Assembly: GCF_021391675.1 (NCBI RefSeq)
Contig: NZ_CP090096.1
Location: forward strand, 620,001-684,000
DNA: 64,000 nt
DNA from: Neorhizobium galegae
GTDB lineage: Bacteria > Pseudomonadota > Alphaproteobacteria > Rhizobiales > Rhizobiaceae
Direction: 5' to 3'
How positions within the stretch are numbered: the stretch's first letter is position 1; each line of letters starts with the position of its first letter. Positions 43,159-64,000 of the stretch are shown piece after piece. A program made the position numbers and the translations under genes. Under the pieces are notes generated by a model. It worked only from the letters and a program-made list of their open reading frames with translations, did not search any database and had not been told where the DNA came from.

Positions 43159-44018
43159 GTGAAGGCGAGAGCTTTCGATTACATGCGCCCGAAATGCGTG
43201 CAGGAAGCATTGGAAGCTTTCGTCAGCGCGGATGGTGATGCGAGCTATATTGCGGGGGGCAGAGTCTCGTCCCGGCGCTCGCGCTTCGGCTGCAAGCCCC
43301 CGGCCTTCTCATCGATATCGCTCGCCTGGACGAACTGCGCGGCCTTTCCATCGCTGGCGGTCATCTGCGCATCGGCGCAACCACTCGTCACTGCGAAATT
43401 CTCGGCTCGGACCTCGTGCGGGAACATGCGCCGTTGCTTGCAAAGGCGGCTCCTTTCGTGGCGCACCCGGCGATCCGCAACAAAGGCACATTCGGCGGCA
43501 GCCTGGCACTTGCCGATCCCGCATCGGAATTCCCCGCCATGGCGCTGGCGCTTGATGCGATCATTGAAATTGCCTCCGTTGAAGGCGGCCGCCGCGTCGG
43601 TGCCGGCGATTTCTTCATCGATCTCTATGAAACGGCGCTTCAGCCCGGCGAGCTCATCACCGCGGTATACGTACCCCTGGCTACCGCGAAAACCCGGACA
43701 GCCTTCGACGAATTGGCCCGCCGGCGCGGCGATTATGCGATCGTCGGCGCAGGCATCGATGCGGAGATGCAGGGCGGTTTTGTCGAACGCATGCGGATCG
43801 CCTTCCTTTCGGTGGGCTCGACGCCGGTCAGGGCGGGTGCGGTCGAAGCCACGCTGACCGGGCGGCAATTGACGCCGGAGACGATCCGGCAGGCACAGGA
43901 CGTACTCGGCACGGAGCTTGACCCGGTCGGTGACGAGCACACGCCTCCAGAGATGCGCCGGCATCTTGCAAGGGTGCTGCTCGGAAGGCTGCTTGGTCGG
44001 CTGGAGGCGAATGTATGA
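43159..44018 (+). pseudogene. Molybdenum hydroxylase FAD subunit (CoxM-like), one-base frameshift
   Basis: Starts at GTG 43159 after a GGAGG-like site and reads VKARAFDYMRPKCVQEALE. The frame is lost at a run of six G (43254-43259). With one more G the sequence would read AGGQSLVPALALRLQAP, the canonical FAD-binding motif of CoxM-type subunits. The rest continues in the other frame, with HPAIRNKGTFGGSLALADPASEFPA, to 44018. Everything else looks intact at about 286 residues. The lesion may be a sequencing error in a G homopolymer. It overlaps the next gene by 4 bp. Confidence 0.88.
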
Positions 44019-44512
44019 GCGGCAAGGTGGAGATTTCGCTGGCCGTGAACGGCGAGACAATCGAGGCTCTGGTTGCACCGCGCACCACGCTTGCCGATTT
44101 CCTGCGGCAGGACATCCAGCTCACCGGCACCCATACGGGTTGCGAAATGGGTGTCTGCGGCGCCTGCCTGGTATTGCTGGACGACCGACCGGTGCATGCC
44201 TGCCTGATGTTTGCGGTGCAGGCCGATGGCTGCGCCGTCGAGACGGTCGAAGGCCTGACCCTTCGCAGAGCTATAGACGACCTCCAGAAGGCGTTTCATG
44301 AGCGCAATGCTTTGCAATGCGGCTTCTGCACGCCGGGCATGCTGGTGAGCGCCTACGGGATTCTGGCTTCCGGGGGAGAACCCGATCGCGACGGTATCCG
44401 TGACGCGCTCTCGGGAAACTACTGTCGCTGTACCGGTTACGAATCGATCGTCGATGCGATCGAAACGACGGTGAGACAGCGCCGGCAGCATGTGGAGGAG
44501 GAGAAGGCATGA
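44015..44512 (+). CDS. Molybdenum hydroxylase [2Fe-2S] subunit (CoxS-like)
   Basis: Iron-sulfur subunit of 165 residues. The ferredoxin-type cluster motif is TGCEMGVCGACLVLLDDRPVHAC. The C-terminal helical domain has the second cluster ligands in LQCGFCTPGMLV and GNYCRCTGY. It transfers electrons from the molybdenum centre of the large subunit to the FAD of the medium subunit. It overlaps both neighbours by 4 bp in the medium-small-large order common in this family. Confidence 0.95.
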   Translation: MSGKVEISLAVNGETIEALVAPRTTLADFLRQDIQLTGTHTGCEMGVCGACLVLLDDRPVHACLMFAVQADGCAVETVEGLTLRRAIDDLQKAFHERNALQCGFCTPGMLVSAYGILASGGEPDRDGIRDALSGNYCRCTGYESIVDAIETTVRQRRQHVEEEKA

Positions 44513-46878
44513 ACGCGTTCGCCGGCTCCATCGACAGGCCGAACTCCTATATCGGCCGCTCGGTATCGCGACCGAATGCCAAGCGTCTGCTCGAGGGCCG
44601 GGGGCGGTACGTGACCGATCTCGTGCTGCCGCGCATGCTGCATGCGGCTTTCGTCCGCAGCCCTTATGCGCATGGAAAAATTGTTTCGATCGATATCGAG
44701 GAGGCAAAGGCCCTCTCCGGCGTTCGCGCGGTCTTCACCGGTGAGGACCTGGCATCGATCTGCGCGCCCTGGACCGGAACGCTCGATCATTTCACCAATA
44801 TGAAGTCTCCGCCGCAAGTGCCGCTACCTCTTGAAAAGGTGATGTGGTCAGGGCAGCCGGTCGTTCTCATCGTCGCCGACAGCAGGGCGATCGCCGAAGA
44901 TGCCGCCGAGCTGGTGATCGTCGATATCGAGGAGCTTCCAGCGCTGGCGGACCCGGTCGAGGCCATGTCCGCCGCGGCGATGTCGCAAGAGCTCGCCGAC
45001 AATATCTGCTTTGCCACGAAACTCGACAGCGGCGGCGTCGAGGAGGCATTCGATGCAGCGGACACGACGGTCGAACAGAGCTTCATTTTCGGCCGGCACA
45101 CGGCGGTGACACTCGAACCGCGCGCGATCGTTGCCGACTACGATCCGAGCGAGAACCGGCTGACTGCCCACCACGCGACCCAGACACCCTATCAGTTCCA
45201 GGATGTCTATTCCCGCCACTACGGCATTCCGGAAGCCAATGTCCGCGTCATCGCGCCGGATATCGGCGGTTCGTTCGGAATGAAACTGCATGTCTATCAC
45301 GAGGAGATGGCGGTCGTTGGCGCGTCGATCCTGCTCGGTCGCCCCATCAAATACGTCGCCGACCGGATGGAATCCTTCGTCTCGGATATTCATGCCCGCG
45401 ACCACCGGGTAACCGGGCGTCTTGCCCTCGACAGGGACGGCCGCATCACAGCCATGGACGTGGACGACGTCACCGCGATCGGTGCCTTTTCGAGCTACCC
45501 GCGCACCAGCGCGGTCGAGGGAAACCAGGTCATCCGCCTGATGGGCGCCCCTTATGACTTCTCGTCCTATCGCGCCAATCTTTCGGTCGTGTTCCAGAAC
45601 AAGGTGCAGACCAGCCAGTATCGCGCCGTCGGGCACCCGATAGCCTGCGCGGTGACGGAATCCCTGGTCGACGCCGCGGCGCGCGAACTCAGCCTCGATC
45701 CGTTTGAAATCCGCGAACGCAATCTCATTCCGGACAGCAGCTATCCCCGCACATCGCCGACCGGGTACCAGTTCGAAAAGCTCTCCCACCAGGTCTGTCT
45801 CGCGCGGCTGAAGTCGATCATGAATTATGACGCTCTTCGTGCGGAGCAGGCGGGTCTGCGGCAGAAAGGTATCCTGCGCGGCATCGGTATCGCCCTTTTC
45901 GTAGAGATCACCAACCCGAGCCCGGCTTTTTACGGTGTCGGCGGCGCGCGGATTTCCGCGCAGGACGGAGCCATCCTCAAGCTCACGCCGTCCGGTGAGG
46001 TGCATTGTTCGATTTCCGTGACCGAACAGGGGCAGGGGACCGAGACCATCATCGGTCAGATCGTCGCGGACCAGCTCGGCATCGATCGTGAAAAAGTGCG
46101 GGTGATGACCGGCGACACGGATACGACACCCCATGGTGGCGCCACCTGGGCCTGCCGTGGGGCGGGCATCGGCGGCGAAACGGCGCTGCAGGCGGCGCGC
46201 AAGCTGAAGGCAAATCTGCTCGCCGTTGCAGGCCTCATCCTGCAGGCGCGGCCGGGCGAGCTTGATATCCGCGCGGACTGGATCGTCGAGGCGGTCACGG
46301 GCCAGCAACGCATCAGCCTGGCGGAAGTCGCGCGCATCGCTTTCTTCCGGTCGGACACGCTGCCGCCCGAAACTCAGGCGCAGCTTTCCGTTGCGCATCA
46401 CTATGCGCCGCAGGGTTATCCGTTCGCATTCACGAACGGGGCCCAGGGCTGCCTGGTCGAAGTGGATGCGGAGACCGGTTTCGTGAAGATCCTCAAGCAT
46501 TGGGTGGTCGAGGATTGCGGCCGCATCATCAATCCGCTGCTGGTGGACGAACAGGTGCGGGGCGGGGTGGTGCAGGGACTGGGCGCGGCTTTTTTCGAGG
46601 AATGCCTCTACAACGAGGAAGGTCAGCTCACCAACGGTTCGCTTGCCGATTACCTCGTGCCGATGGCCTGCGAGATGCCGGATATAGAGATTTCCCACGT
46701 CGAAACGCCGACCCGGGACACCGAGCTCGGTGCAAAGGGCTGTGGCGAAGCAGGGACGGCGGCGGCTTCCGCTGCCGCGATGAATGCCGTCAACGATGCG
46801 CTTGTGGGTCACGGCGCGGTGCTGACGCAGATACCGATGACGCCGACGCGCATATTGAAGGCGCTCGGCACGATCTGA
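44509..46878 (+). CDS. Molybdenum hydroxylase large subunit (CoxL/XdhB-like)
   Basis: Molybdopterin-binding catalytic subunit of 789 residues. An N-terminal aldehyde-oxidase/xanthine-dehydrogenase hammerhead domain (SVSRPNAKRLLEGRGRYVTDL) is followed by molybdenum-binding segments: GGSFGMK (253-259), QYRAVGHP around 370-377, and GCGEAG with the catalytic Glu near 747. True CO dehydrogenases carry an AYxCSFR loop at the second position. Its absence here points to hydroxylation of an aromatic, heterocyclic or aldehyde substrate. The enzyme is cytoplasmic and works with the CoxS and CoxM-like subunits. Confidence 0.93.
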   Translation: MNAFAGSIDRPNSYIGRSVSRPNAKRLLEGRGRYVTDLVLPRMLHAAFVRSPYAHGKIVSIDIEEAKALSGVRAVFTGEDLASICAPWTGTLDHFTNMKSPPQVPLPLEKVMWSGQPVVLIVADSRAIAEDAAELVIVDIEELPALADPVEAMSAAAMSQELADNICFATKLDSGGVEEAFDAADTTVEQSFIFGRHTAVTLEPRAIVADYDPSENRLTAHHATQTPYQFQDVYSRHYGIPEANVRVIAPDIGGSFGMKLHVYHEEMAVVGASILLGRPIKYVADRMESFVSDIHARDHRVTGRLALDRDGRITAMDVDDVTAIGAFSSYPRTSAVEGNQVIRLMGAPYDFSSYRANLSVVFQNKVQTSQYRAVGHPIACAVTESLVDAAARELSLDPFEIRERNLIPDSSYPRTSPTGYQFEKLSHQVCLARLKSIMNYDALRAEQAGLRQKGILRGIGIALFVEITNPSPAFYGVGGARISAQDGAILKLTPSGEVHCSISVTEQGQGTETIIGQIVADQLGIDREKVRVMTGDTDTTPHGGATWACRGAGIGGETALQAARKLKANLLAVAGLILQARPGELDIRADWIVEAVTGQQRISLAEVARIAFFRSDTLPPETQAQLSVAHHYAPQGYPFAFTNGAQGCLVEVDAETGFVKILKHWVVEDCGRIINPLLVDEQVRGGVVQGLGAAFFEECLYNEEGQLTNGSLADYLVPMACEMPDIEISHVETPTRDTELGAKGCGEAGTAAASAAAMNAVNDALVGHGAVLTQIPMTPTRILKALGTI

Positions 46879-46913
46879 ACGCAATAACGATCCGATGTCA
46901 GGAGGAGGACAGG

Positions 46914-48164
46914 ATGACAAACGGAATTGAGAAGCTGGCTTTAAGGCCGATCGGCCGCCGTGCAGCCCTTTTCGGGTTGGCCGGTGTCGCCGGAACACTT
47001 TCGATGCCATGGATAGCGCGGGCGCAGGCGGAAACCATCCGCATCGGTTTTCCGACGCCTTTGACCGGCCCGTTCGCAGCCGAGGCCAACGACCAGGTCC
47101 GCAGCGCCCAGCTCGCCGTAAAGCTCGCCAACGACAAGGGCGGAATTGCCGGACGGAAGGTCGAGCTCCTGGTGCGCGACGACAAGCTGAATGCCGGCGA
47201 AGCCGCCACCCGCACGCTCGAACTGATCGAAAAGGACAAGGTCCATGCCGTGGTCGGCGCACTTTCGAGCGCCGTACAGCTTGCGGTCAACGAGGTGACC
47301 CGTGCCCGCAGCATGCTGTACATCTCGATCAGCCAGTCGGACACCATCAACGAGATCAAGGATTTCAGCCCCTATACGTTCCACGAGGCGCTAAATCCGA
47401 CGATGACGACCGCGGTTGTCGCCAAGCACAGTTTCAAGAAGGGTTCGAAGGTCGCCTATCTTGTTGCCGACTATGCCTACGGTCACGAGATGCTGCGCGG
47501 TTTCAAGCGGGCGGCCAAGGAAATCGGTGCACAAACAGTCAGCGAAATCCTGCACCCGTTCGGCGCGGCGGATTATTCGACCTTCATCCCGACCATCCTG
47601 TCGTCGGGCGCCGACATCCTCTGCATCTGCAATTTCGGTCGCGACCAGGCCAATTCCATCAAGCAGGCGGTGGATTTCGGCGTGAAGGACCAGATGAAGA
47701 TCGTCGTGCCGGTGCTGCTGCACAACCAGCGGCTTGCGGTCGATCCCGAAGTCTTCGAAGGTGTCACCGGCGGCGCGAACTATTACTGGGGCCTGGAAGA
47801 AACGGTGCCTTCCGCAAAGGCGTTCAACGACGCCTTCAGAGCCATGTATAAGGGCACGATCCCGACCGACTATGGAGCCTACGGCTATACCGGCGTCGCT
47901 TCCCTGTTGATGGCCATCGAAAAAGCAGGCGGGACGGAGCCACAGAAGGTCATCGCGGCTCTGGAAGCGCTGAAATATGATATCGCCAAGGGAGAGCAGT
48001 CCTACCGCAAGTGCGACCACCAGTCGATGCAATCGGTACTCGTCCTGGAATCCAAGGCGAAAAGCGCGATGAAATCGGATGCCGATCTCTTCAAGATCGT
48101 CGCCGCGGAACCTGCGTCGGAGAGCGTGTTGCGAACCTGCTCCGAACTCGGCTTCAAGAGCTGA
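46914..48164 (+). CDS. ABC transporter substrate-binding protein (branched-chain amino acid type)
   Basis: Periplasmic binding protein of 416 residues of the LivJ/LivK family (IRIGFPTPLTGPFA, then NDKGGIAGRKVELLVRDD). The N-terminus RPIGRRAALFGLAGVAGTLSMPWIARAQA has a twin-arginine-like motif and a signal cleavage after ARA or AQA. The ATG at 46914 follows GGAGGA. The same family binds many aromatic acids and amides, so co-transcription with a molybdenum hydroxylase suggests an aromatic ligand. Three permease/ATPase genes and a fourth ATPase follow. Confidence 0.92.
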   Translation: MTNGIEKLALRPIGRRAALFGLAGVAGTLSMPWIARAQAETIRIGFPTPLTGPFAAEANDQVRSAQLAVKLANDKGGIAGRKVELLVRDDKLNAGEAATRTLELIEKDKVHAVVGALSSAVQLAVNEVTRARSMLYISISQSDTINEIKDFSPYTFHEALNPTMTTAVVAKHSFKKGSKVAYLVADYAYGHEMLRGFKRAAKEIGAQTVSEILHPFGAADYSTFIPTILSSGADILCICNFGRDQANSIKQAVDFGVKDQMKIVVPVLLHNQRLAVDPEVFEGVTGGANYYWGLEETVPSAKAFNDAFRAMYKGTIPTDYGAYGYTGVASLLMAIEKAGGTEPQKVIAALEALKYDIAKGEQSYRKCDHQSMQSVLVLESKAKSAMKSDADLFKIVAAEPASESVLRTCSELGFKS

Positions 48165-48185
48165 TACCCTGGGACGGATGAGGTC

Positions 48186-49061
48186 ATGACTGTCCAATTG
48201 ATTGCAATGCAGCTGTTTTCGGGTCTCGCGCTGGGCGCCGTCCTGATCATGGTTGCGCTCGGCCTGTCGATCATCTTCGGCATGCTCGGCATCGTGAACT
48301 TCGCGCATGGTGCGCTGTTCATGGTGGGAGCCTATGCGGGGCTCTACGTGGCCGGCCTGACGGGGAGCTTCTGGTGGGCTCTCCTGATCGCGCCGGTCAT
48401 GATCGGCCTGTTCGGCATGCTGATCGAGCGTTTCCTCATCCGTCCTCTCTATGGCCGCTCGCCGGACGATCCGCTGCTTCTAACCTTCGGCCTTGGTTAC
48501 GTGCTGGTCGAGGCGGTACGGATATTTTTCGGCACCGACGGCATTCCGTTCTCGACGCCGGCAGCCCTTCGAGGCGTGGTGAACCTCGGCATCGGCTTTT
48601 TTCCGCTCTACCGCCTTTTCGTCATCGGGGTGGTTGTCGCCGTCCTGCTGCTGCTGTGGGTCGGTCTCGAAAAGACGAAATTCGGCCTGATCGTCAGGGC
48701 AGGTTCCGCCGATCCGCTGATCATGCGCGTGCTGGGTGTCGATATCAGTAGATTATGGTTGGTCGTGTTCGGTATCGGGGTCGGCATCACCGCACTCGGC
48801 GGTGTGCTTGCTGCACCGATGCGCAATGTCAGTCCGGAAATGGGCACGCTTGTGTTGGCCGAGGCCTTCGTGGTGACGGTCATCGGCGGCATGGGCTCGC
48901 TTCCCGGCGCCGTCATTGCCGGGCTCATCGTCGGCGTCTCGGTCAGCATGACATCGCTCTTCGCGCCGGAAATGGCGACGATCGTCATGTTCGCGCTGAT
49001 GGCGCTCATTCTGCTGGTGCGTCCGAACGGCCTTTATGGCCGCGCCGCGCCTGGACTCTAG
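48186..49061 (+). CDS. livH: Branched-chain-type ABC transporter permease (LivH)
   Basis: Inner-membrane permease of 291 residues with eight or so helices. Typical LivH sequence is visible: LALGAVLIMVALGLSIIFGMLGIVNFAHGALFMVGAY, and near the C-terminus GGMGSLPGAVIAGLIVGV. It follows the binding-protein gene by 21 bp and precedes livM. It forms the channel with LivM. Confidence 0.93.
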   Translation: MTVQLIAMQLFSGLALGAVLIMVALGLSIIFGMLGIVNFAHGALFMVGAYAGLYVAGLTGSFWWALLIAPVMIGLFGMLIERFLIRPLYGRSPDDPLLLTFGLGYVLVEAVRIFFGTDGIPFSTPAALRGVVNLGIGFFPLYRLFVIGVVVAVLLLLWVGLEKTKFGLIVRAGSADPLIMRVLGVDISRLWLVVFGIGVGITALGGVLAAPMRNVSPEMGTLVLAEAFVVTVIGGMGSLPGAVIAGLIVGVSVSMTSLFAPEMATIVMFALMALILLVRPNGLYGRAAPGL

Positions 49062-49071
49062 GGAGACCGCC

Positions 49072-50070
49072 ATGTCCGTCATCAGAAATGCGGAACTTGT
49101 CCCGGCGCCCGCCCGCCGCAGCTTCGCGACACTGTTTTCCAATGTCAGCCGCTGGCGGGTGCCGCTTTCAATCCTGGCGCTCTGCATCCTGCCCTGGGTG
49201 CTGCCCTCGCAGGCGCTGGCCGTCAACGTGTTGATCTACGGCCTCGTCGCCGTCGGCTACAACCTGCTCTTCGGTTACACCGGCCTGCTTTCCTTCGGTC
49301 ATGCGGCTTTCTTCGGGGCCGGAGCCTATGCGACGGGTATCGCGATCGGTGCTTTCGGGGTCCACTGGTTCATCGCGATGCTGATCGGTGTGCTGATTTC
49401 GGGCCTGCTTGCGACGGTCATGGGGGTGCTCGCCATCCGCACGCGTGGCATCTACTTCTCGATGGTGACGCTCGCGCTGGCACAGCTCGTCTACTATGCG
49501 GCGCTGCAAGCCTCATCCTGGACCGGCGGCGAAAATGGTCTGCGCGGCTTTACGGTCAGCACGCTGCACCTTCCCGGCTTCTCGGTAAATTTCCTCGATC
49601 CTCTCGTGAAATATTACGCGATCATGATCGTGGTCGCGGCGGCGCTCTGGTTCGTGTCGAGGGTATTGAATTCGCCTTTCGGCGCGGTGATCGAGGCGAT
49701 CCGCGAAAACGAGACGCGGGCGCGCGCCTGCGGCTATGATGTCGAGCGAACCAAGCTGCTGTCCTTCATCCTTTCAGGCATTCTCTGCGGGCTCGCGGGC
49801 ACGCTGTCGGCGATGCATCTTTCGATCGTGCCCCTGGATTCGCTCCACTACCATACGTCCGGTCTGATCGTGATGATGACGCTGCTCGGCGGCGCCGGCA
49901 GCTTCTTCGGTCCGTTTATCGGCGCGTTGGCGTTTCTTTCGATGGAGGACATTTTCTCGCTCTGGACATCCAACTGGCAGCTCATTGTCGGCGTGATCTT
50001 CATCCTCTTCGTCCTCTATCTGCCGAAGGGCATCTGGGGCACCTTAATAACCTGGGGCAAAAGCCGATGA
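49072..50070 (+). CDS. livM: Branched-chain-type ABC transporter permease (LivM)
   Basis: Inner-membrane permease of 332 residues. LIYGLVAVGYNLLFGYTGLLSFGHAAFFGAGAYATG is the LivM signature, and GGAGSFFGPFIGALAF lies near the C-terminus. The ATG at 49072 follows AGGGAGA. An upstream in-frame ATG at 49036 lies inside livH and is less likely. Its stop overlaps the livG start (ATGA). Confidence 0.93.
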   Translation: MSVIRNAELVPAPARRSFATLFSNVSRWRVPLSILALCILPWVLPSQALAVNVLIYGLVAVGYNLLFGYTGLLSFGHAAFFGAGAYATGIAIGAFGVHWFIAMLIGVLISGLLATVMGVLAIRTRGIYFSMVTLALAQLVYYAALQASSWTGGENGLRGFTVSTLHLPGFSVNFLDPLVKYYAIMIVVAAALWFVSRVLNSPFGAVIEAIRENETRARACGYDVERTKLLSFILSGILCGLAGTLSAMHLSIVPLDSLHYHTSGLIVMMTLLGGAGSFFGPFIGALAFLSMEDIFSLWTSNWQLIVGVIFILFVLYLPKGIWGTLITWGKSR

Positions 50071-50822
50071 GCGCACCCATCATGAGCGTCACCAATATCG
50101 GCAAGCAGTTCGGCGGACTGGTCGCACTGAAGGACGTGACGGCCGATTTCCGGGAAGGCCAGATCACCGCCATCATCGGGCCGAACGGTGCCGGCAAGAG
50201 CACGTTCTTCAACATCCTGTCCGGCGCCCTGAAACCCTCCAGCGGAACGCTTAGGTTTCGTGGCGCGGACATGGCGGGCGTGCCACAGCACGACTATGTG
50301 CACCGCGGCATCGCCCGCTCGTACCAGATCACCAACATCTTCCCCAACCTTTCCGTCTTTGAGAACGTCCGTGTCGCTGCACAGGCTTTCCGATCCCGCA
50401 TGAACATCTGGGCAGACCGCAGTGCCGACAGGGATAGCGAGGACAGGGCCTCGGCAATGCTCGCATCTGTCGGGTTGTCGGCGCGGGCGGCGACACCGGC
50501 CAAATTCCTGGCGCACGGCCAGCAGCGTGCGCTGGAAATCGCCATCGCCCTGGTGGCCGATCCGGCGCTTCTGTTGCTCGATGAGCCGACTGCCGGGATG
50601 GGGCCGGAAGAGACGCGCGAGATGGTCGCGCTGATAGAGAAGCTGGCGACCCAACGCACGATCCTGCTGGTCGAGCACAAGATGAAGATGATCCTCGGCC
50701 TCAGCGACCGCGTGCTCGTACTTCACCATGGCCAGTTGCTGGCCGACGGGACACCGAAGGAAATCCAGGCGAACTCCGAGGTTCGCCGCGTCTACCTGGG
50801 ACAAAATGATGGCTATGCTTGA
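50067..50822 (+). CDS. livG: Branched-chain-type ABC transporter ATPase (LivG)
   Basis: ABC ATPase of 251 residues. Walker A is GPNGAGKST, followed by the LivG-type GIARSYQITNIFPNLSVFENV. Walker B is LLLLDEPTAGMGPEE, with VEHKMKMILGLSDRVLVLHHG after it. The helical signature reads FLAHGQQRALEIAIALVADPA, where the usual LSGGQ serine-glycine pair is replaced by AHGQ, a variant seen in other LivG proteins. It is coupled to livM and livF by overlaps. Confidence 0.93.
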   Translation: MSAPIMSVTNIGKQFGGLVALKDVTADFREGQITAIIGPNGAGKSTFFNILSGALKPSSGTLRFRGADMAGVPQHDYVHRGIARSYQITNIFPNLSVFENVRVAAQAFRSRMNIWADRSADRDSEDRASAMLASVGLSARAATPAKFLAHGQQRALEIAIALVADPALLLLDEPTAGMGPEETREMVALIEKLATQRTILLVEHKMKMILGLSDRVLVLHHGQLLADGTPKEIQANSEVRRVYLGQNDGYA

Positions 50823-51519
50823 AATCGAAGGCCTGAACGGCTGGTATGGCGCGAGCCATGTGCTTCATGGGGTATCGTTTGCGGTGGAACCGGGCGAGAT
50901 CGTCGCGCTTGTCGGCCGCAACGGCGCCGGCAAGACGAGCATCATCCGTTCGATCATGGGGCTCATGCCGCGTACCGCCGGCGCCATCCGGTTCAACGGC
51001 GAAGACATATCCCGGCTAAAGGCTCACGACCGCTATGTCCGCGGCCTCGCCTATGTTCCGGAAGAACGTCGTATCGTGCGTGGGCTGACGGTGCTGGAAA
51101 ACCTGCAGCTGGGGCTCGTCGCCGACCGTAAGCGGATCGACGAGGCGGCTGCGATCGACGAGATCGCCCGCAGCTTCCCGCGCTTGAAGGAGCGGTTGCA
51201 TCAGGAAGGTGTAACGATGTCGGGCGGCGAGCAGCAGATGTTGGCGATAGCCCGCGCCATGATCGCCCGGCCGAAGATGATCCTGCTCGACGAGCCGTCG
51301 GAAGGCATCATGCCCGTGCTGGTCGAGGAGATGGGCGCACTGTTCAGGCGGCTGCGGGAGGAGGGGACGACGCTGCTCCTCGTCGAGCAGAATGTCGAAT
51401 GGGCGCTGAACCTTTCGGACCGGGCGGTTATCGTCGACCAGGGCGAGATCGTCTATCGCAGCGATGCGGCAACACTTCTGGCGGACAAGGACATTCAGGA
51501 GCGATACTGCGCGGTCTGA
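50815..51519 (+). CDS. livF: Branched-chain-type ABC transporter ATPase (LivF)
   Basis: ABC ATPase of about 234 residues. Walker A is GRNGAGKTS, the LivF-type PEERRIVRGLTVLENLQLG follows, the signature is MSGGEQQMLAIARAM and Walker B MILLDEPSEGIMP. The ATG at 50815 overlaps the livG stop by 8 bp; ATGs at 50806 and 50809 are alternatives. It completes a five-component Liv system inside the molybdenum hydroxylase operon. Confidence 0.93.
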   Translation: MLEIEGLNGWYGASHVLHGVSFAVEPGEIVALVGRNGAGKTSIIRSIMGLMPRTAGAIRFNGEDISRLKAHDRYVRGLAYVPEERRIVRGLTVLENLQLGLVADRKRIDEAAAIDEIARSFPRLKERLHQEGVTMSGGEQQMLAIARAMIARPKMILLDEPSEGIMPVLVEEMGALFRRLREEGTTLLLVEQNVEWALNLSDRAVIVDQGEIVYRSDAATLLADKDIQERYCAV

Positions 51520-52030: not shown

Positions 52031-52091
52031 CGCGTCCCGAACACGACGGATCCCGCCGTGGCGCATCGAACCATCGTCGTCGGCCGTCTCG

Positions 52092-54788: not shown

Positions 54789-55762
54789 TTAGGTCGGCTC
54801 GACAAGCCCGGCCTTGACCAGCGGCTCGATCGACCGGATCTCGCGTTCGATCGAGCCGGCCATTTCGTCAGGCGAATTGACGACGGGGGTCAGTCCAAGC
54901 GACGCAAATTTCTTCTGTGCTGCCGGCGTATCGCTCCACTCCTTGATGGCTATATAGATCTTGCTCACGATCTCCTTGGGCATCCCTTTTGGGCCGACAG
55001 CGCCGAACCAGAGGGTCTGCTCGTAGCCGTTGAGACCCTGTTCTGCGACGGTCTGCACCTCGGGCAGTTCCGGAATCCGCTTGGCCGAGGTAACCGCAAG
55101 CCCACGGATTTTCGCCTCGCGGATATGAGGGAGATAGTTGGACGGGGCGTCGAGCGCGAAGTGGATGTGCCCGCCCAGCAGGTCGGCCAGCAGCGGCGGC
55201 GAACCCTTGTAGGGAATATGGTTGATCTGCACGCCGGCCATCTGGCCGATGATCGCAGCGGCTATATGCCCCTTGGTCCCCGCACCCGGATTTCCAATAT
55301 TCAACTTTCCAGGGTTTGCCTTTGCATAGGCGATGAGTTCCTGGACCGATTTCGCCGGAGCCGAAGCGCTTGCGCTGAGCAGCGCCGGGCTTTCTGCGAC
55401 AATCGAGATCGGTGTGAAGTCCACCTGCGGATCGTATGCAAGGTTCTTTTGCACCACCTTGTTAGCCGCAATCGGCGCGCTGCCGCTGATCATGATCGTG
55501 TAGCCGTCGGGCGCGGCGCGTGTGAGCCGGCCGCCGGCCAGGGCCCGGCTGCGCCGGCATGGTTCTCGATGACGAATTGCTGGCCGTATTTGGCCGTCAA
55601 TGCGTCCGCGACCAGCCGGGCAATTATGTCACTGGTGCCACCCGGAGGATAAGCCGAGATCACCACCACCGATTTGCTCGGCCAACTGTCGGCCAGCGCA
55701 ATTCCTCTGGACGCCAGCATGGCAGCTGTCCCGCCCAATACGATAAATTCCCGCCTGTTCAT
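54789..55762 (-). pseudogene. Tripartite tricarboxylate transporter binding protein (TctC), one-base frameshift
   Basis: Bug/TctC-type periplasmic receptor. From the ATG at 55762 the signal MNRREFIVLGGTAAMLASRG (twin-arginine-like) leads into PSKSVVVISAYPPGGTSDIIARLVAD, a TctC hallmark. The frame breaks after NHAGAAG at 55544-55546, where GGG would need to be GGGG. Restoring a G gives AGALAGGRLTRAAPDGYTIMI, the expected sequence. The rest (NIGNPGAGTKGHIA, HIPYKGSPPLLADLLGGHI) is intact to 54789. Restored length is about 324 residues, normal for the family. Confidence 0.87.
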
Positions 55763-55896: not shown

Positions 55897-56520
55897 TCAT
55901 TCCATGCCGGCAAGCCAGCGTTCCTCGCCCTCATGAAAAGCGCCGAGTTGGTCCGGCCGATCGTCGCCCAGCAGATCGGATTTTACCGTCACCCCGCGCG
56001 TATGCTGGATATAAGCCAGGAACTTGTAGGAGGGACGCATCGTCGACAGGACGGACCAGTCGATGGGAAGTGTCTCTGCCGGGTTGACGGGCTTGGCGAT
56101 ATCCCTCTCGAACAGGACCTCGAAGGTGAGGAGCTTCCAGGTGCCGGCCTCCCGCACGGCGCGGGAGAAGAACCGGCAGAAGACATGAAGGTCGATCTCG
56201 ACGCCGTCAGGCCTTGCGCGATTGAAGATCATCGCCGGGCTTTCCACCGTTGCCCGGTCCCCAGTCACTTGCGCAAAGGCGGGAAAGACCCAGTGTTTGC
56301 TGTTTCCGGTCGCCTTCATCCACTCGCGCGTAGCGTCCACATAGGCCTGGCCGCCACGTCCCTCGTACCAGCTTGTCCGGATATAGGCGTCGCGATGGAA
56401 GCATGCGCTCATCACGTCGAAACGGCGCTGGTCACGGGCAAAGCGTTCGCGGCGCACGAGATCGAAGAGTTCTTCGCGGTCTAGAAGAGCCCGAAGGCGC
56501 CTGTCGTCGTCCGGTTGCAT
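55897..56520 (-). CDS. Nuclear transport factor 2 family protein (SnoaL-like)
   Basis: Protein of 207 residues with an NTF2-like domain. REELFDLVRRERFARDQRRFDVMSACFHRDAYIRTSWYEG is the usual alpha-helical start and metal/substrate-pocket region, and HVFCRFFSRAVREAGTWKLLTFEVLFERD the beta-sheet. Relatives include small subunits of ring-hydroxylating dioxygenases and polyketide cyclases. The ATG at 56520 has GAGGAGA upstream, and longer upstream frames only run antisense to tctA sequence. It sits between tctA and tctC, an unusual interruption, so it probably acts on the transported compound. Confidence 0.82.
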   Translation of the reverse strand: MQPDDDRRLRALLDREELFDLVRRERFARDQRRFDVMSACFHRDAYIRTSWYEGRGGQAYVDATREWMKATGNSKHWVFPAFAQVTGDRATVESPAMIFNRARPDGVEIDLHVFCRFFSRAVREAGTWKLLTFEVLFERDIAKPVNPAETLPIDWSVLSTMRPSYKFLAYIQHTRGVTVKSDLLGDDRPDQLGAFHEGEERWLAGME

Positions 56521-56567
56521 AAGGGTCTCCTCAAAGTTGGTGCGTATATGGATGCGTGCTGTAGCGA

Positions 56568-58073
56568 TCAGTCGACTTCCTGCAGCCCTTCCTCGCGCAC
56601 TTTGCGAAAGCGCGGCGACACGATCGACAGGAGTAGCAGGGCGGCGACGACCAATGTTCCGAGACTGAGGGGGCTCGTGAAGAAGACGCTTGCATCTCCA
56701 TGGGAGATCAGCAGCGTCCGGCGCAGATATTCTTCCGCCATGGGACCAAGGATCATGGCCAGGATGAGCGGCGCGGGCTCTGCTCCCATCCTCTTGAAGA
56801 AATATCCGAGCACGCCGAACAGCGCCATCATGTACACGTCGAAAACGCTGTTGTTGATGCTGTAGACGCCGATTGCCATGAAGACGCAGATCGTCGGGAA
56901 CAGAAAGTGGTATGGCACCGAAATCAGCTTTGCCCACATGCCCACGAGCGGAAGGTTCAGGAACAGCAACATCAGATTGCCAAGCCACATCGAGACGACC
57001 AGGCCCCAGAACAGGGCAGGCTGCTGAGACAGGATTTCCGGCCCGGGCTGGACGCCCTGAACGACCAGCGCTCCGATCATCAGAGCCATGGTCGCGGTTC
57101 CCGGAAGGCCGAGCGTCAGCATCGGTATGAAGCAGGTTTGCGCCGCGGCGTTGTTCGCGGCCTCTGGTGCGGCTACCCCCTCGATCGCACCCTTGCCGAA
57201 TTGCTCGGGATGTTTCGAGATCTTCTTCTCCAGCGCATATGCCGAGAAGGACGCGAGCAGGACGCCGGCGCCGGGCAAGACTCCGAGCAGCACCCCGATA
57301 CCGGTGCCGCGCAGGATCGGCGCGGACATCCGGCGCCAGTCCTCGGCCGTCGGGAACAGGCTGCTGACGGGCGCGACCCCGACCACCCGCAAACGCTCGT
57401 TTTCCAGGTTCATGAGGACGTCGCCCAGACCGAATATGCCCGTGGCGACGACGACGAAATCCAACCCGTCGAGCAGGTAGGGCGAGCCGAACGTATACCG
57501 CGCGGCCCCTGTATTGATGTCGGTTCCGATCATTCCGAGGGTGATGCCGAACAGAGCCATGCCGAAGGCTGTCAGGAGCGATCCGCTGGTCAGCACCATC
57601 GAGGTGATAAGGCCGAGCATGATAAGCGAGAAATACTCCGCCGGCCCGAAGGTGAGGGCCAGACTTGCCAGCAGTGGCGCTGCTATCACGATGAAAAGCG
57701 TTCCCACCGTGCCGGCGAAGAAGCTGCCGATGGCGGCCGCCGCCAGCGCGCGCCCGGCTTTGCCCTGCTTCGCCATCTGGTGTCCGTCGAGCGTGGTGAC
57801 GACGGATGAAGCTTCTCCTGGAAGATTCATCAGGATCGCAGTCGTTGAGCCTCCATATTGCGATCCGTAGAAGATGCCCGCCAGCATGATCAGCGCTGTA
57901 TCGACCGGCAGCCCGAACGTGAACGGCAGGAGCATGGAAATGGTCGCGATCGGCCCGAGACCGGGCAGGACGCCCACTGCGGTGCCAAGAAGTACACCCG
58001 CAAAACAATAGGCGAAATTGGACAGCGTCGTTGCCGTCGAAAACCCCAGGAGAAGTCCATTGAAAATGTCCAT
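56568..58073 (-). CDS. tctA: Tripartite tricarboxylate transporter large permease (TctA)
   Basis: Integral membrane protein of 501 residues with about 12 helices. The motif [39 protein letters not shown] is the family signature, and [37 protein letters not shown] its repeat in the second half. With TctB and TctC it imports carboxylates. It begins 18 bp after tctB. Confidence 0.94.
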
Positions 58074-58091
58074 GTCAATCCTGCAAAGCGG

Positions 58092-58553
58092 TTAGAAACC
58101 GAGAACCCGTAGCCAGCTTCCCACGATGGGGATGGGTAGGCCGAGGAGTTCGATGAAGACGACGGAGCAGAGCGCGGCAAAGGCGAGAGACCCTGCGACG
58201 GCCTTCCATCCGATGTGAAACTTGATGCTCGTCGCCGCGGTCAAGACCGTCAGCAGGAGAATGGCCAGCGGCAACCCGAGGGTCTCGACCGCCAGCCCGA
58301 AAATCACGACCGCACCGGGGATCAGCAAGAGCGGCTTCCACCGAATGGCTGGCAGTATTTCCGGCTGGACGAATTTCGAACGAAAGAGGACGAGGAGGCC
58401 CGTCAACACCAGCAAGCTCGAAATGATGACAGGAAAATAACCCGGCCCCATCCGACCTGATGTGCCGAATGGGTAACTCATCGCAACTGAAACGGACACG
58501 ACACCAAAAACAACGAAAAAGAGTCCCAGTAGAACGTCTTGGCTCAGCTTCAT
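58092..58553 (-). CDS. tctB: Tripartite tricarboxylate transporter small permease (TctB)
   Basis: Membrane protein of 153 residues with four helices. The N-terminal LGLFFVVFGVVSVSVAMSYPFGTSGRMGPGYFPVI is the TctB signature, including the MGPGYFP motif. It is the first gene of the tctB-tctA-NTF2-tctC-iorAB gene order. Its promoter would lie in 58554-58792. Confidence 0.92.
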   Translation of the reverse strand: MKLSQDVLLGLFFVVFGVVSVSVAMSYPFGTSGRMGPGYFPVIISSLLVLTGLLVLFRSKFVQPEILPAIRWKPLLLIPGAVVIFGLAVETLGLPLAILLLTVLTAATSIKFHIGWKAVAGSLAFAALCSVVFIELLGLPIPIVGSWLRVLGF

Positions 58554-58792: not shown

Positions 58793-59554
58793 CTAGAGAT
58801 GGCGGCCTTCGTCGACCGGTATGACGATTCCCGTCGAACTGGTGAGGTTGACGATGCAGGCGGTCACTGCCCGCGCGACATCGTCGGGAGTGGTGATCCT
58901 GGCGAGTGGAAGTCGTTCCGCGACTTTTTGCAGCTGGTCCCGGGTACGGTGTGGAACAAAATCCGTATCCACGCCAGCGGGCGAAACGGAGAAAACTCGA
59001 ACTTTGGGTGCCAGCACCTTGGCGAGGGCAATTGTGAGCGCATCCAATCCGCCCTTCGCCGCAATATAGGCCAGGCTGCTTCCCACACCGGTCCGGGCCG
59101 CAATGGAGGAGATATTGACGACGGCGGCGTTGTTGCCTTGCTCCAGCATCGGGCGGAATGCACGAACCATCGCGAAGGGGCCTCTGAGGTTTATCGCTAC
59201 CGCGCGATCGAATATGTCGTCGGTGAGCGCGTCGAGGTCGTTTGCCGCGACCGGGGTTGTCGCACCCCCGCAGTTGATCAGGGCATCGAGGCTACCGAAT
59301 TTTTCCCCGACGGCGACGGACGCCTCGGTGACGGATGCCGGATCATCGATCGCGATGCGCAGGGCGCTGTGGCCGCTGCCTTGAAGGCTTTGGACGACGT
59401 CAGCGGCCATCTCCGGGCGGCTGTTGTAGCCGACCACGATGGTGGTGCCCATGCGGGCGAGCCGCGCGGCGATCGCGCGCCCGATCCCGCTGTTTCCACC
59501 GGTCACGAGCGCAACTCTTGGAACTGCCAGTTCCGGAACTTCGATCAGTGGCAT
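58793..59554 (-). CDS. Short-chain dehydrogenase/reductase (SDR)
   Basis: NAD(P)-dependent oxidoreductase of 253 residues. TGGNSGIGRAIA near residue 18 is the cofactor motif. Ser in VNISSIA and YIAAK (Tyr and Lys) form the catalytic set, and ALINCGGATTP stands where NNAG is usual. Oxidation or reduction of an alcohol/ketone intermediate of the pathway is likely. Its stop is followed by the tct spacer, and the aldolase gene lies upstream on the same strand. Confidence 0.9.
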   Translation of the reverse strand: MPLIEVPELAVPRVALVTGGNSGIGRAIAARLARMGTTIVVGYNSRPEMAADVVQSLQGSGHSALRIAIDDPASVTEASVAVGEKFGSLDALINCGGATTPVAANDLDALTDDIFDRAVAINLRGPFAMVRAFRPMLEQGNNAAVVNISSIAARTGVGSSLAYIAAKGGLDALTIALAKVLAPKVRVFSVSPAGVDTDFVPHRTRDQLQKVAERLPLARITTPDDVARAVTACIVNLTSSTGIVIPVDEGRHL

Positions 59555-59587
59555 TTTTCCTCCCGAAAAGACCTGCCGACAATGAAT

Positions 59588-60361
59588 TTAAGCCGAGTAT
59601 TCCTTGAGAGCGGCGGCGGCGGCCGATCGGATGAAGCCATGGTCGCTCGACACCAACATCGCACTCGCGCCGAGTTCGGCCGCAAAATTGAAGTCGGCCT
59701 TGCTGGTCGGCAGCATCATGAGCGGAATATCGGCCTCTCGTGCCGCTGCCGCGATCTGCCTGCTTGTTTCCGCCACCTTGATGCCGGCCTGCGGATCGCC
59801 TCGGTATGCTGCAGTCAGATCTCCCCGGCCGATGAACAAAGCGTCTATGCCGTCTACCCTGGCGATATCCGCCGTCCGGTCAACGGCTTCGAAATCTTCG
59901 ATCATGGCGATACAGGCGACCTGGCTGTCCTGCAGCGACATATGATGCACCGCCTCAACACTTCCCCAATTGCTGGCGCGCGTCAGCCCGGCAAAACCTC
60001 GGCTGCCTCCCGTATATCGGCAGCTGCGTGCGATTGCCCGAGCCTTTTCGACCGTGTTTACATGTGGGACCATGATCCCCATCGCGCCCGAATCGAGCGC
60101 CGACAGGATGTTTGCTTCGCTGAATTCGGCGATGCGCACCACGGGCGCGATATTCGATGCGCGAGCGGCAAAGATCATCAGGTCGGTCATGTCGCGCCCG
60201 AGCGCGGCATGCTCCTGGTCGATAACCACGAAATCATAGCCGATCGCCCCCAATATCTCGACCACCTGCGTCGTGGGAAGCTTGAGGAATGTGCCGAGCA
60301 TCCGTTGGCGCGTCAGCAGTCGTTCACGGAATGCGGTAAAATCGGGACGCTGTTCTGTCAT
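59588..60361 (-). CDS. HpcH/HpaI family aldolase
   Basis: Class II pyruvate aldolase of 257 residues. His51 in DFVVIDQEHAALG is the catalytic base. The metal ligands are expected in CIAMIEDFEAVD and LFIGRGDLTAAY, and an Arg-rich start segment is present. Members split 4-hydroxy-2-oxo acids into pyruvate and an aldehyde, often the last step after aromatic ring cleavage. It is 33 bp upstream of the SDR gene on the same strand and diverges from the BKACE gene. Confidence 0.9.
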   Translation of the reverse strand: MTEQRPDFTAFRERLLTRQRMLGTFLKLPTTQVVEILGAIGYDFVVIDQEHAALGRDMTDLMIFAARASNIAPVVRIAEFSEANILSALDSGAMGIMVPHVNTVEKARAIARSCRYTGGSRGFAGLTRASNWGSVEAVHHMSLQDSQVACIAMIEDFEAVDRTADIARVDGIDALFIGRGDLTAAYRGDPQAGIKVAETSRQIAAAAREADIPLMMLPTSKADFNFAAELGASAMLVSSDHGFIRSAAAAALKEYSA

Positions 60362-60581: not shown

Positions 60582-61475
60582 TTGGCCAATCCGACCATCA
60601 TAAGCTGCGCCGTCACAGGCAATATCACGACGATCGATCAGACCCCCTATCTGCCGGTCACTCCGGAGCAGATCGCCGCTGCCTGCATCGATGCTGCGCG
60701 GGCGGGCGCTGCGATCGTTCATATCCATGTGAGGCATCCGGACGGCAGGCCAAGCATGGAGTTGCAGCATTATCGCGAGGTTGTCGAGCGCCTGCGGGCA
60801 GCGGACGAGGACGTGATCATCAACCTGACGACCGGCCCTGGCGGGCGGTTCGTCCCCAGCGAAGACGAACCGCGGATCGCTGCGCCGGGAACCACGCTGA
60901 TGCGACCGGAGCACCGGGTCGAACATATCGCTTTCCTGCGGCCGGAGATCTGCAGCCTCGATTTCAATACGATGTATTCCGGTTCTTCCGTGGTCATCAA
61001 TACGCCCCGCAATCTCGCGGTCATGGCGGACATCGTTCGCAATGCGGGCGTACTGCCGGAGATCGAGGTATTCGATACGGGAGACATCCAGCTCGCCAAT
61101 CAGTTCCTTCAGGAGGGGAGGCTGGCGGAGCCCGCGCTGTTCCAGATCGTGCTCGGAGTGCGTTACGGGGCAATCGCCACGCCGGAAACGCTGATGTACA
61201 TGAAATCGCTTCTGCCGGCAGGCGCTCATTGGGCGGCCTTTGGCGTGGGGCGCTGGGAGTTTTCGATGCTGGCGCAGGCCTGGCTTCTGGGCGGTCACGT
61301 TCGGGTCGGACTGGAGGATAACATCTATCTGGAGAAAGGCGTCCTCGCCTCAAGCAACACCGTGCTCGTGGAGAAGGCCGTGCGCATTTTAAGAGAGCTG
61401 GGAGGCACCATCGCGACCGCCGGCGAGGCGCGAGAAATTCTGGGGCTGAAGAAGCAGCTTCCGAAGCCACGCTAG
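60582..61475 (+). CDS. Beta-keto acid cleavage enzyme (BKACE/DUF849 family)
   Basis: Zinc-dependent enzyme of 297 residues related to 3-keto-5-aminohexanoate cleavage enzyme (Kce). Features are TGNITTIDQTPYLPVTPEQIA, the metal-binding AAIVHIHVRHPDGRPS (His-x-His), TTGPGG and NTMYSGSSVVINTPRN. The family condenses a beta-keto acid with acetyl-CoA, giving acetoacetate and a new CoA ester. The reading frame begins at TTG 60582 (MANPTII); no ATG is nearby. The gene is codirectional with the bicupin gene. Confidence 0.9.
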   Translation: MANPTIISCAVTGNITTIDQTPYLPVTPEQIAAACIDAARAGAAIVHIHVRHPDGRPSMELQHYREVVERLRAADEDVIINLTTGPGGRFVPSEDEPRIAAPGTTLMRPEHRVEHIAFLRPEICSLDFNTMYSGSSVVINTPRNLAVMADIVRNAGVLPEIEVFDTGDIQLANQFLQEGRLAEPALFQIVLGVRYGAIATPETLMYMKSLLPAGAHWAAFGVGRWEFSMLAQAWLLGGHVRVGLEDNIYLEKGVLASSNTVLVEKAVRILRELGGTIATAGEAREILGLKKQLPKPR

Positions 61476-61619
61476 ATCCTTCGGGCGGAGCATGCCACTC
61501 GGCCGGCTTCCCGGGAAGGCGGCCCGCAGCCCTGCCTTAATGCAATCCGGTTTCCTGTCGCGGAGCCAGACGATTTCGACTACGGCGCCAGCAATTCTGG
61601 CAGAAAAGCGGAGATGCCA

Positions 61620-62530
61620 ATGTACGTTCAGAGTGACCCACGATCCAATCTGTCCAACGCTGCGAAACCGGGCGGCACGAAGGTGCACAACAGCTATTTC
61701 GGCTCGCAGCTTGCCCTGTTCTACGAAACCGCGCCCCAGATCGCCGATGCCAACGGCGACACATGGATCAGCCGTGGGCAGAACTTTGTCGTCGCATACA
61801 GCAATGCGACAGAGGGCGGCATCTTCTCACGCCGGTCGCAGCCCGATGAATATGCCTTGATCATTCCCGACAAGGAGACCTCGGTCGAAATCACGACCGC
61901 GGAGGGAGCCACCGTCGTTCCGGGCTATTCCGTCGCCTTCGTGCCGCCGGGCGACAGCTCAATCCGGGTATCCACGGGCGGCAGCGTCGTTCGCCTTTTT
62001 ACACCAAAGTCGGAGGATCTGGCTGGCGCCGCTTCGAACGCGGATGCCTTCCTCGGAGAGCATCCCAATGTCCCCCCTTCGAAGCGTGGCCGGAGCCGCC
62101 CGGCGGGCTGAAGTTGAAGTGGTATACGCTGGAGGTTCCGGACGATCCGTCCCGGTTCGGGCGCATCTACCGCTCTACGACGTTCATGATCAACTATCTG
62201 TCGCCGCGCATCGGTCCTCGCGAGCGGGACAAGGTGTCCCCGCACCATCACGACGATTTCGAGCAGTGCTCGCTGGCGTTAAGCGGTTCCTTCACGCACC
62301 ATCTGCGCTGGCCCTGGACTACGAACATGAACATCTGGCGGGAGGACGAACATCTCTACTGCGAATCGCCGTCGATCTGCGTTATCCCGCCGCCAGCGAT
62401 CCACACGACAACCGCTGAATCCGCCGGCGTAAATCAACTGGTGGACATCTTCGCGCCGCCGCGGATGGATTTTTCGCAAAAGCCCGGCTGGGTCCTCAAC
62501 GCAGACGATTACCCGATGCCCCAGGTCTAG
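61620..62530 (+). pseudogene. Two-domain cupin protein, one-base frameshift
   Basis: N-terminal half from the ATG at 61620 (MYVQSDPRSNLSNAAKPGGTKVHNSY) through a cupin-like region ([18 protein letters not shown]) to a break at a run of six C (62072-62077). One more C would join it as [26 protein letters not shown]. The second cupin follows, with a clear metal site [19 protein letters not shown] and a later His in PPPAIHTTT. About 303 residues would result. Such bicupins act as isomerases, decarboxylases or dioxygenases. The activity here is unknown. Confidence 0.78.
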
Positions 62531-62533
62531 CCG

Positions 62534-63556
62534 CTATCGGCTCGCCGTCGGCTCCGGAACGGCGTGGGCAAGCGCCGGATCGACGGCAAGGACAACTTTG
62601 CCGATCTGGCGGTTTTCGTCCAGGATGCGATGAGCCTCCCGCACTTGCCCGAACGGGACGACCTGATGGATGCGGGTGACAATGCGGCCGTCCCCAAGCA
62701 GCGGCCAAACGTGGTCGACCAGGTCTTTCGCAAGCCGTCCCTTGTAGGAGGGTGGCCTTGGTCTAAGGGTCGATCCGGTGATCGTCAGCCGTCGGCGAAC
62801 CAGCGTACGGATGTTCACCTGCGCCATGCTGCCTTGATGGCTGGCGATGAAGACGAGCCGGCCGTCGTCCTTCAAGAGGTCCAGCTGGCGCTGCGTTTCG
62901 GTTCCGGCTTGCCCGTCCAGGATGATATCGACCCCTTCGCCGCCGGTCAGGTTGCGGATGTGTTCATCCCAGGCATCGCGATAGTCGACCGCGGCTTGCG
63001 CGCCGACGATCTTGCAGACCGCTCGCTTCTCGGCGGTGCCGGCGGTCGCAAAAACGGTTGCGCCTCGAAGCTGCGTGGCGATCTGGATGCCGGCCATTCC
63101 AACCCCGCTGGTGCCGCCCTGGATCAGCAGGGTCTCCCCATATTCCAGTCGCGCCAACCAGATCAGGTTGTTCCAGGCCGTGAAGAAGACTTCCGGAAGC
63201 GAAGCAGCCTCTATGAAGCTCAGGCCTTTCGGGATCGGCATGCATTGCACGGCCGGCGCCACGCAGAACTCCGCGTAGCCGCCGCCGTTGACGAGTGCGC
63301 AGACCAGGTCTCCTGCCTGAAGCCCCTCAACGCCTTCCCCGAGGTCGTCGATGATCCCGGCAACGTCGAGACCGGGAATTTCGGAGGCGTCTGGCGGCGG
63401 TGGATAGAGACCGCGCCGCTGCTGGACGTCCGGCCGATTGATCCCGGCTGCGACGACGCGGATCAGCACTTCCCCGGGCGCCGGCCGCGGCTGCGGGCGT
63501 TCAACGATGCGAAGAACTTCAGGCCCGCCTGGACGTTCGATCTCGATGACTTGCAT
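62534..63556 (-). CDS. NAD(P)H:quinone oxidoreductase (zinc-independent MDR, PIG3-like)
   Basis: Medium-chain dehydrogenase/reductase of 340 residues. The N-terminal groES-like domain includes AAGINRPDVQQRRGLYPPPP and IPGLDVAGII; the nucleotide motif is IQGGTSGVGMAGIQIA. Zinc-binding cysteines are absent, as in quinone oxidoreductases. It faces the bicupin gene (convergent, 3 bp between stops) and is followed upstream by the DUF6282-like gene, 26 bp away on the same strand. It would reduce a quinone or unsaturated ketone. Confidence 0.9.
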   Translation of the reverse strand: MQVIEIERPGGPEVLRIVERPQPRPAPGEVLIRVVAAGINRPDVQQRRGLYPPPPDASEIPGLDVAGIIDDLGEGVEGLQAGDLVCALVNGGGYAEFCVAPAVQCMPIPKGLSFIEAASLPEVFFTAWNNLIWLARLEYGETLLIQGGTSGVGMAGIQIATQLRGATVFATAGTAEKRAVCKIVGAQAAVDYRDAWDEHIRNLTGGEGVDIILDGQAGTETQRQLDLLKDDGRLVFIASHQGSMAQVNIRTLVRRRLTITGSTLRPRPPSYKGRLAKDLVDHVWPLLGDGRIVTRIHQVVPFGQVREAHRILDENRQIGKVVLAVDPALAHAVPEPTASR

Positions 63557-63582
63557 ATGACTGGGTCAGCGGAATGGAGTGG

Positions 63583-64000
63583 TCACGTCGGCAATCCGAC
63601 CAGCTTGGCCGGATTGTCTGCAACCATGGTCCGCACCTCCGTTTCGCTGAAACCCAATGCCAGGCAGAGCTTGATCGCCTGGCGCATGCCTTCCACCGGC
63701 GTGGGATTGTCGACCTGTCCGAGGTCCGAGCCGATCGAGGAATGTTCGACGCCTGCAGCCAGGATGTGTTCCTTGAATTCCTCCGGCGTATAGGTGTTGA
63801 AGCGGGAATCGACATACAGTCCGGCGGACTGTTCGATGAGGGCGCCCAGTTGAGCCAGTTCGCGAACGTCGTCGGGGGTGAAGTGGAGCCCGTACATCGG
63901 ATGATTGACGAGCAGACGCTTGACGCCGCGGGCCCGCGCTTCATCGAAGAGCTTCCAGATTTCCCAGACATGCAGATGCCCGGAGGACAGAATGGCATCG
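63583..64000 (-). CDS. DUF6282-like amidohydrolase-related protein, 5' end beyond the window
   Basis: C-terminal 138 codons of a protein running off the window edge. Visible sequence includes ILSSGHLHVWEIWKLF, KRLLVNHPMYGL and GVEHSSIGSDLGQVDNP, then NPAKLVGL. His-containing strands and the late Asp region (GSDLGQ) resemble the metal-dependent amidohydrolase fold of the DUF6282 group. The start codon lies beyond base 64000. It is co-oriented with the quinone oxidoreductase and probably in one operon with it. The reaction is unknown. Confidence 0.7.
   Translation of the reverse strand, partial: DAILSSGHLHVWEIWKLFDEARARGVKRLLVNHPMYGLHFTPDDVRELAQLGALIEQSAGLYVDSRFNTYTPEEFKEHILAAGVEHSSIGSDLGQVDNPTPVEGMRQAIKLCLALGFSETEVRTMVADNPAKLVGLPT

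Follow-up and report, generated by a model that had tools for sequence, protein, structure and literature searches.

A molybdenum hydroxylase gene cluster of Neorhizobium galegae read as two adjacent catabolic modules

Do the catabolic genes at the right end of the window, i.e. the whole 64,000-nucleotide stretch of Neorhizobium galegae DNA analysed here (bases 620001-684000 of the 1,254,988-base contig NZ_CP090096.1, in a genome of 6.05 Mb and three contigs), encode one pathway or more than one? An initial annotation had described a large catabolic cluster that contains two enzymes of the molybdenum hydroxylase family along with two importers, an aldolase and a beta-keto acid cleavage enzyme (BKACE), and had tentatively read all of it as a single route for an N-heteroaromatic compound. 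Pfam scans of the listed genes bore out this inventory and support a cluster of that kind; the interpretation proved right in part. We computed the gene inventory and order, the modularity of the locus, the alternation of one of its enzymes with an aldehyde dehydrogenase (ALDH), a conserved gene triad, predicted folds and frame breaks. As a whole, the locus is best explained as two adjacent catabolic modules on a large replicon, with the routes proposed below, and we give this explanation about an even chance of being right. What stands out in it is an exchange of enzymes and a triad that is conserved, and not the number of molybdenum hydroxylases. The left module (module 1, 42.3-52.0 kb) consists of a TetR-type regulator gene (minus strand) followed by CoxM-CoxS-CoxL-SBP-LivH-LivM-LivG-LivF-CoxG (plus), SBP being a substrate-binding protein. 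The right module (module 2, 52.1-64.5 kb) reads IorB-IorA-TctC-NTF2-TctA-TctB-SDR-HpaI (minus), BKACE-bicupin (plus) and quinone oxidoreductase (QOR)-DUF6282 (minus).

The triad consists of DUF6282, the bicupin and the HpaI-type aldolase. Core loci were collected by scanning contigs with the cupin of N. galegae HAMBI 540 and those of five relatives (identities from 80 down to 66%); among 353 cupin relatives, the best 80 loci, representing 76 distinct genomes, were kept. HpaI (at least 40% identity) was found in 73 and DUF6282 (at least 38%) in 72 of these 80 loci, both together in 68, and both in 55 of the 59 loci having at least 20 kb. The other partners vary, with SDR (at least 70%) in 34 loci, BKACE (at least 50%) in 28, QOR (at least 55%) in 26, and TctA (at least 80%) and NTF2 (at least 60%) in 21 each, and the importer adjoining the core is of the Tct, TRAP or Liv type. 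The triad is thus the constant part, and BKACE and the importer are additions. The bicupin (61620..62530, plus, frame broken near 62075) is 303 residues long; of 2963 candidates, 2536 are its homologues at E <= 1e-10. Neither the bicupin nor DUF6282 (PF19799; its 3' part at 63583..64000, minus, the gene running on to 64530) has a sequence relative in the PDB at E 0.1. For DUF6282, a model of a relative (locus L009) and an alignment of relatives predict an amidohydrolase-fold barrel with an H-x-H motif and further H/D ligands, and the nearest relatives of the HpcH/HpaI-type aldolase (59588..60361, minus; PF03328) are 2-dehydro-3-deoxyglucarate aldolases (4tv5, E 2.7e-29). A second cupin locus occurs in some genomes (L010:14971-15876; also G299, G312, G315 and G342); the second cupin of L010 is 55% identical and adjoins Liv-type importer genes. 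In the Bradyrhizobium loci L047-L075, SDR and ALDH share 74-84% identity with the HAMBI 540/SOG26 queries, with cupin and HpaI at only about 53%; the former may be an unusually constrained or a transferred pair.

The exchange concerns IorAB, a two-subunit enzyme with [2Fe-2S] and molybdopterin subunits and no FAD subunit, encoded by IorB (52092..54196, minus, frame broken near 52554) and IorA (54196..54675, minus). In the core loci and relatives examined, no CoxM-type match lies beside IorAB except module 1's own, and the Pfam matches of its neighbours in the window include no cytochrome c gene as in Pseudomonas simiae and P. putida, so that IorAB would not be of the cytochrome c subtype. SOG26 lacks IorAB and has an ALDH gene (PF00171, 525 bits) between TctB and SDR. 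Among the core loci, IorB (at least 70%) occurs in 12 of 80, ALDH (at least 75%) in 24 and both in none; whole-genome searches in 26 of the 76 genomes, in which matches of 42-43% were treated as paralogues and left uncounted, gave an IorB orthologue only in 13, ALDH only in 9, both in 1 and neither in 3. On a 35-row tree of SDR and cupin the IorAB/ALDH labels need 3 changes, compared to 10.5 when shuffled; its starred branches force at least one (ALDH) or at least two (IorAB) changes, and the SDR pairs with ALDH in distant loci. The nearest solved structure of IorB is an aldehyde dehydrogenase large subunit (8gy3, 4.1e-43), quinoline 2-oxidoreductase reaching just 2.5e-18. Since IorAB and ALDH alternate and are never both present in the 80 loci, IorAB most likely oxidises an aldehyde. 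Three points weigh against this assignment: the single genome with both (G305) carries ALDH and a partial IorB (399 residues at 81%), the best NCBIfam models for IorB are xanthine dehydrogenase-like subunits, all far below cut-off, and the alternation may reflect the replacement of different steps. Nevertheless, the alternation together with the best solved relative of IorB makes the two ring hydroxylations assumed in the initial annotation unlikely.

Whether the two modules belong together was assessed from the occurrence of CoxL orthologues (E <= 1e-200, best three candidates scored per genome) and of the cupin (E <= 1e-80). Among 297 genomes of the family, CoxL occurs in 18 and the cupin in 28, and both occur together in two, which is no excess: the window's genome and G001, where they lie on separate contigs. 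All 17 other CoxL stretches of the family, read over 8-20 kb around CoxL, are without a cupin, DUF6282 or HpaI match; the importer beside CoxL is TRAP in eight of them (related to that of Dinoroseobacter), a Liv set in two and neither at that strength in seven. CoxL lies in the flank read of two of the 80 core loci and just past the flank in four more, and occurs somewhere (E <= 1e-200) in 31 of the 76 distinct core genomes. In the stretches read of N. galegae HAMBI 540 and SOG26, the core is present and CoxMSL is absent. The genes therefore look like two modules and not one pathway, and the CoxL stretches without core genes and the scarcity of CoxL beside core loci leave the single pathway not well supported. 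What weighs on the other side is that the modules remain side by side in the N. galegae group and that, among 297 genomes of the order, in which CoxL and cupin occur in 38 and 22, they co-occur in 8 compared to 2.8 expected (P 0.003 in a hypergeometric test, which ignores kinship and genome size); these two observations favour some joint use of the modules. Of the eight genomes, only the window's has CoxL and cupin close together, the other seven having them on separate contigs or more than 1 Mb apart. Both modules are adjacent and in the same order in six genomes (the window's, VafX2, HAMBI 1146, DS1978, N. tomejilense and N. vignae), they are linked but rearranged in N. petrolearium, with the CoxMSL module on the other flank, and they are linked in one distant metagenome-assembled genome (L035) whose CoxMSL-Liv genes are 42-62% identical. 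The two halves (43-52 and 52-64 kb) do, thus, co-occur in other genomes, which the initial annotation had asked of its single pathway. An argument for one pathway from adjacency alone was set aside after these module tests.

For module 2, we propose that TctABC would import a carboxylate, that the SDR would oxidise an alcohol and that IorAB, replacing ALDH, would take the aldehyde to the acid. A ring (lactone, pyrone or amide) would be hydrolysed by DUF6282; the unsaturated oxo acid so formed would be hydrated by the bicupin, after which the HpaI-type aldolase would release pyruvate by retro-aldol cleavage. BKACE (60582..61475, plus; PF05853, 326.2 bits versus a gathering score of 24.8), where present, would convert a beta-keto acid fragment with acetyl-CoA; it scores 268 bits, below the cut-off of 382, against the 3-keto-5-aminohexanoate cleavage equivalog NF052387. 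The NTF2-fold protein and the QOR may assist somewhere in the module. We infer each of these reactions, their order and any joint action of the two modules. For the bicupin, we prefer the hydratase to a ring-opening enzyme; against this preference, its fold matches include quercetin dioxygenases with Z within 1 of the best, so that the bicupin may yet open a ring with oxygen. In a wider and tentative proposal, which we consider possible but somewhat less than evenly probable, the bicupin would be the first member of an undescribed metal-dependent hydratase family and would form, with DUF6282 and HpaI, a widespread unrecognised module feeding pyruvate from many upper pathways, IorAB having replaced ALDH in Neorhizobium.

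For module 1, we propose that a small substrate would be imported and then oxidised by the three-subunit molybdenum hydroxylase, the substrate probably being an N-heterocycle or a purine-like compound. CoxL (44509..46878; PF01315, PF02738, PF20256) has quinoline 2-oxidoreductase (1t3q, E 2.4e-140) as its best solved relative, so that one N-heterocycle hydroxylation may still take place; this part of the initial annotation may hold, whereas a second hydroxylation by IorAB is unlikely. Almost equally close is a CoxL of the CO dehydrogenase type (8uem, 6.9e-137), and the best NCBIfam models for CoxL and CoxM are glyceraldehyde dehydrogenase subunits (alpha for CoxL), below cut-off, both of which count against a heterocyclic substrate and leave it weakly founded. 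An assignment of CoxL as aerobic CO dehydrogenase was rejected (TIGR02416, 497 bits versus a cut-off of 991), and the CoxL sequence does not contain AYxCSFR, the motif of form I CO dehydrogenases. Plasmid pMRAD01 of Methylobacterium radiotolerans has the same order from TetR to CoxG, with 47-62% identity from CoxM to CoxG; module 1 adjoins there urate genes (uraH twice, uraD), an FAD oxidoreductase and an NCS1 symporter, and these neighbouring urate breakdown genes hint at a purine-like substrate.

Two other readings of the cluster were weighed against the two modules. The single N-heteroaromatic pathway of the initial annotation, in which the ring is hydroxylated twice, by CoxMSL and IorAB, then opened with oxygen by the cupin, with the aldolase and BKACE as the last enzymes, draws on the nearest solved relative of CoxL, on the adjacency of the modules in six N. 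galegae-group genomes and their linkage in two more, and on the quercetin dioxygenases among the cupin fold matches; it conflicts with the alternation of IorAB and ALDH and with the separate occurrence of CoxL and core genes, and we hold it to be quite improbable. Alternatively, module 2 could be a sugar-acid or deoxysugar route, in which IorAB or ALDH makes an aldonate, the SDR a keto acid that BKACE cleaves, with the cupin acting as isomerase and HpaI as aldolase of 2-keto-3-deoxy acids. The kinship of HpaI with 2-dehydro-3-deoxyglucarate aldolases would suit this route, as would the IolB-like and BacB/AerE structures among the cupin fold matches, BacB and AerE being isomerases. The same is true of the gene set IorAB-like, SDR and BKACE, which is that of the deoxyribose/deoxyribonate pathway (PMC6365646). 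The route is nevertheless unlikely: BKACE is present in just 28 of the 80 core loci, the cupin relatives in Rhodococcus opacus (for which the gene tables used are incomplete) and Streptomyces sit among aromatic-ring genes, and the Pfam scans, confined to the cluster, found no glycerate kinase, which the deoxyribose product would need. Galega plants contain quinazoline alkaloids, and such a host-plant substrate was considered and dropped because many other soil bacteria also possess the core.

As read, CoxM, IorB, TctC and the cupin of this strain are broken. All four frameshifts reported in the initial annotation were confirmed against N. tomejilense, N. vignae, N. galegae HAMBI 1146 and DS1978 (93-96% identity), where the two pieces of each gene form one open frame. 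The window's own genome holds, for IorB, only the two pieces and a 31% paralogue (E <= 1e-30) and, for the cupin, only a single partial match (E <= 1e-80). Decay by slippage and read error are both possible. We put just below even the chance that the breaks arose in sequencing or assembly and that the cluster is functional in this strain: a run of six identical bases is found at three of the four breaks, 41.0-69.5 kb contains just six such runs, and VafX2 has at least ten further frame differences. Against errors, the breaks in CoxM, IorB and cupin, though not that in TctC, are identical in two separately deposited genomes, the window's and VafX2, and runs of seven bases are about as frequent as in the relatives (3 found versus 3.8 expected in 92 kb, the expectation coming from relatives' stretches of which some overlap and are counted twice), a comparison in which no loss of long runs in this assembly was found. 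In VafX2, CoxM has a second break and TctC one of its own. GANTC sites lie near only one of the four breaks. Because three breaks sit at six-base runs, we refrained from concluding firmly that the cluster has decayed. Between CoxG and IorB, VafX2 and four relatives carry a glutathione S-transferase gene that the window lacks, with a clean gap of about 0.8 kb at 52031-52091.

The remaining genes of module 1 are those for the TetR-type regulator (42273..42992, minus; PF00440, 57 bits; at the same site in relatives and Methylobacterium) and, on the plus strand, the CoxM-type FAD subunit (43183..44018, frame broken near 43257; PF00941/PF03450), the CoxS-type [2Fe-2S] subunit (44015..44512; PF00111, PF01799), the Liv-type substrate-binding protein (46899..48164, start chosen by us; PF13458), the permeases LivH (48186..49061) and LivM (49036..50070; both PF02653), the ATPases LivG (50067..50822; PF00005, PF12399) and LivF (50815..51519; PF00005), and CoxG (51593..52030; PF06240), the starts of the latter two following the VafX2 annotation. 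Those of module 2, all on the minus strand, encode the TctC-type binding protein (54789..55762, frame broken near 55544; PF03401), the NTF2/SnoaL-fold protein (55897..56520; PF13577), the permeases TctA (56568..58073; PF01970) and TctB (58092..58553; PF07331), the SDR dehydrogenase (58793..59554; PF13561) and the PIG3-type QOR (62534..63556; TIGR02824, 406.5 bits, above the cut-off of 296.8). An intact IclR-type regulator gene (plus) lies past the window end, beyond DUF6282. The closest named relative found is plasmid pNgVX of N. galegae VafX2 (CP090555.1; 97.5% identity across 50.7-62.5 kb), and the alignment with VafX2 and four relatives starts at base 41289. An orphan LivF (41482-42213) is left of a second Liv operon; a PALP fragment (40574-41050) is close by. 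Elsewhere in the window, an aldo/keto reductase (25270-26519) is divided between two frames and two M19 dipeptidases (14943-15980, 30870-31889) adjoin ABC importer genes; scanning the window for Rfam families and tRNAs gave no matches.

Two of the triad's three families, DUF6282 and the bicupin, have no known function, and together with the aldolase they recur across many Alphaproteobacteria; if the proposed roles are right, many genes annotated as hypothetical gain a testable reaction. The swap of a molybdenum enzyme with a classical ALDH within one cluster is a natural experiment on the reaction of IorAB and warns that not every molybdenum hydroxylase is a ring hydroxylase. Our literature search found nothing under the name DUF6282, nor on this cluster or on N. 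galegae VafX2, the accessible part of PMC4085339 included.

Among known systems, the lower riboflavin/lumichrome pathway is likened to module 2 by gene types alone. In PMC12746152, LumW, LumY and LumX are a metal-dependent ring hydrolase, a cupin and an aldolase acting in succession, and the pathway yields pyruvate and a beta-keto acid (acetoacetate); by analogy, the triad, with its hydrolase-like, cupin and aldolase genes grouped in 68 of the 80 core loci, would carry out hydrolysis, hydration and retro-aldol cleavage to pyruvate. The same paper describes LumW as a cobalt hydrolase, to which DUF6282 is likened by role, and LumY as a 16 kDa cupin, which differs from the 303-residue bicupin and counts against the likeness. 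A further difference from the Lum pathway is that Pfam scans found no Rieske or catechol dioxygenase in the cluster. DUF6282 shares the amidohydrolase barrel and metal-ligand-like residues, as predicted, with the PDC hydrolase LigI and COG3618 amidohydrolases, but is a separate Pfam family with 10-18% identity to the listed fold matches. The deoxyribose/deoxyribonate pathway of P. simiae (PMC6365646) comprises an IorAB-like molybdenum dehydrogenase, an SDR and BKACE, gene types that are all present in our cluster; there, the importers are of the MFS type, whereas the window has TctABC and holds IorAB, SDR and BKACE in one cluster with a cupin, an aldolase and DUF6282. Finally, quinoline 2-oxidoreductase and other CoxMSL-type hydroxylases have, like module 1, three subunits with FAD, 2Fe-2S and molybdopterin domains, but module 1 differs from quinoline 2-oxidoreductase in having its own importer (Liv here, TRAP in many relatives) and CoxG alongside.
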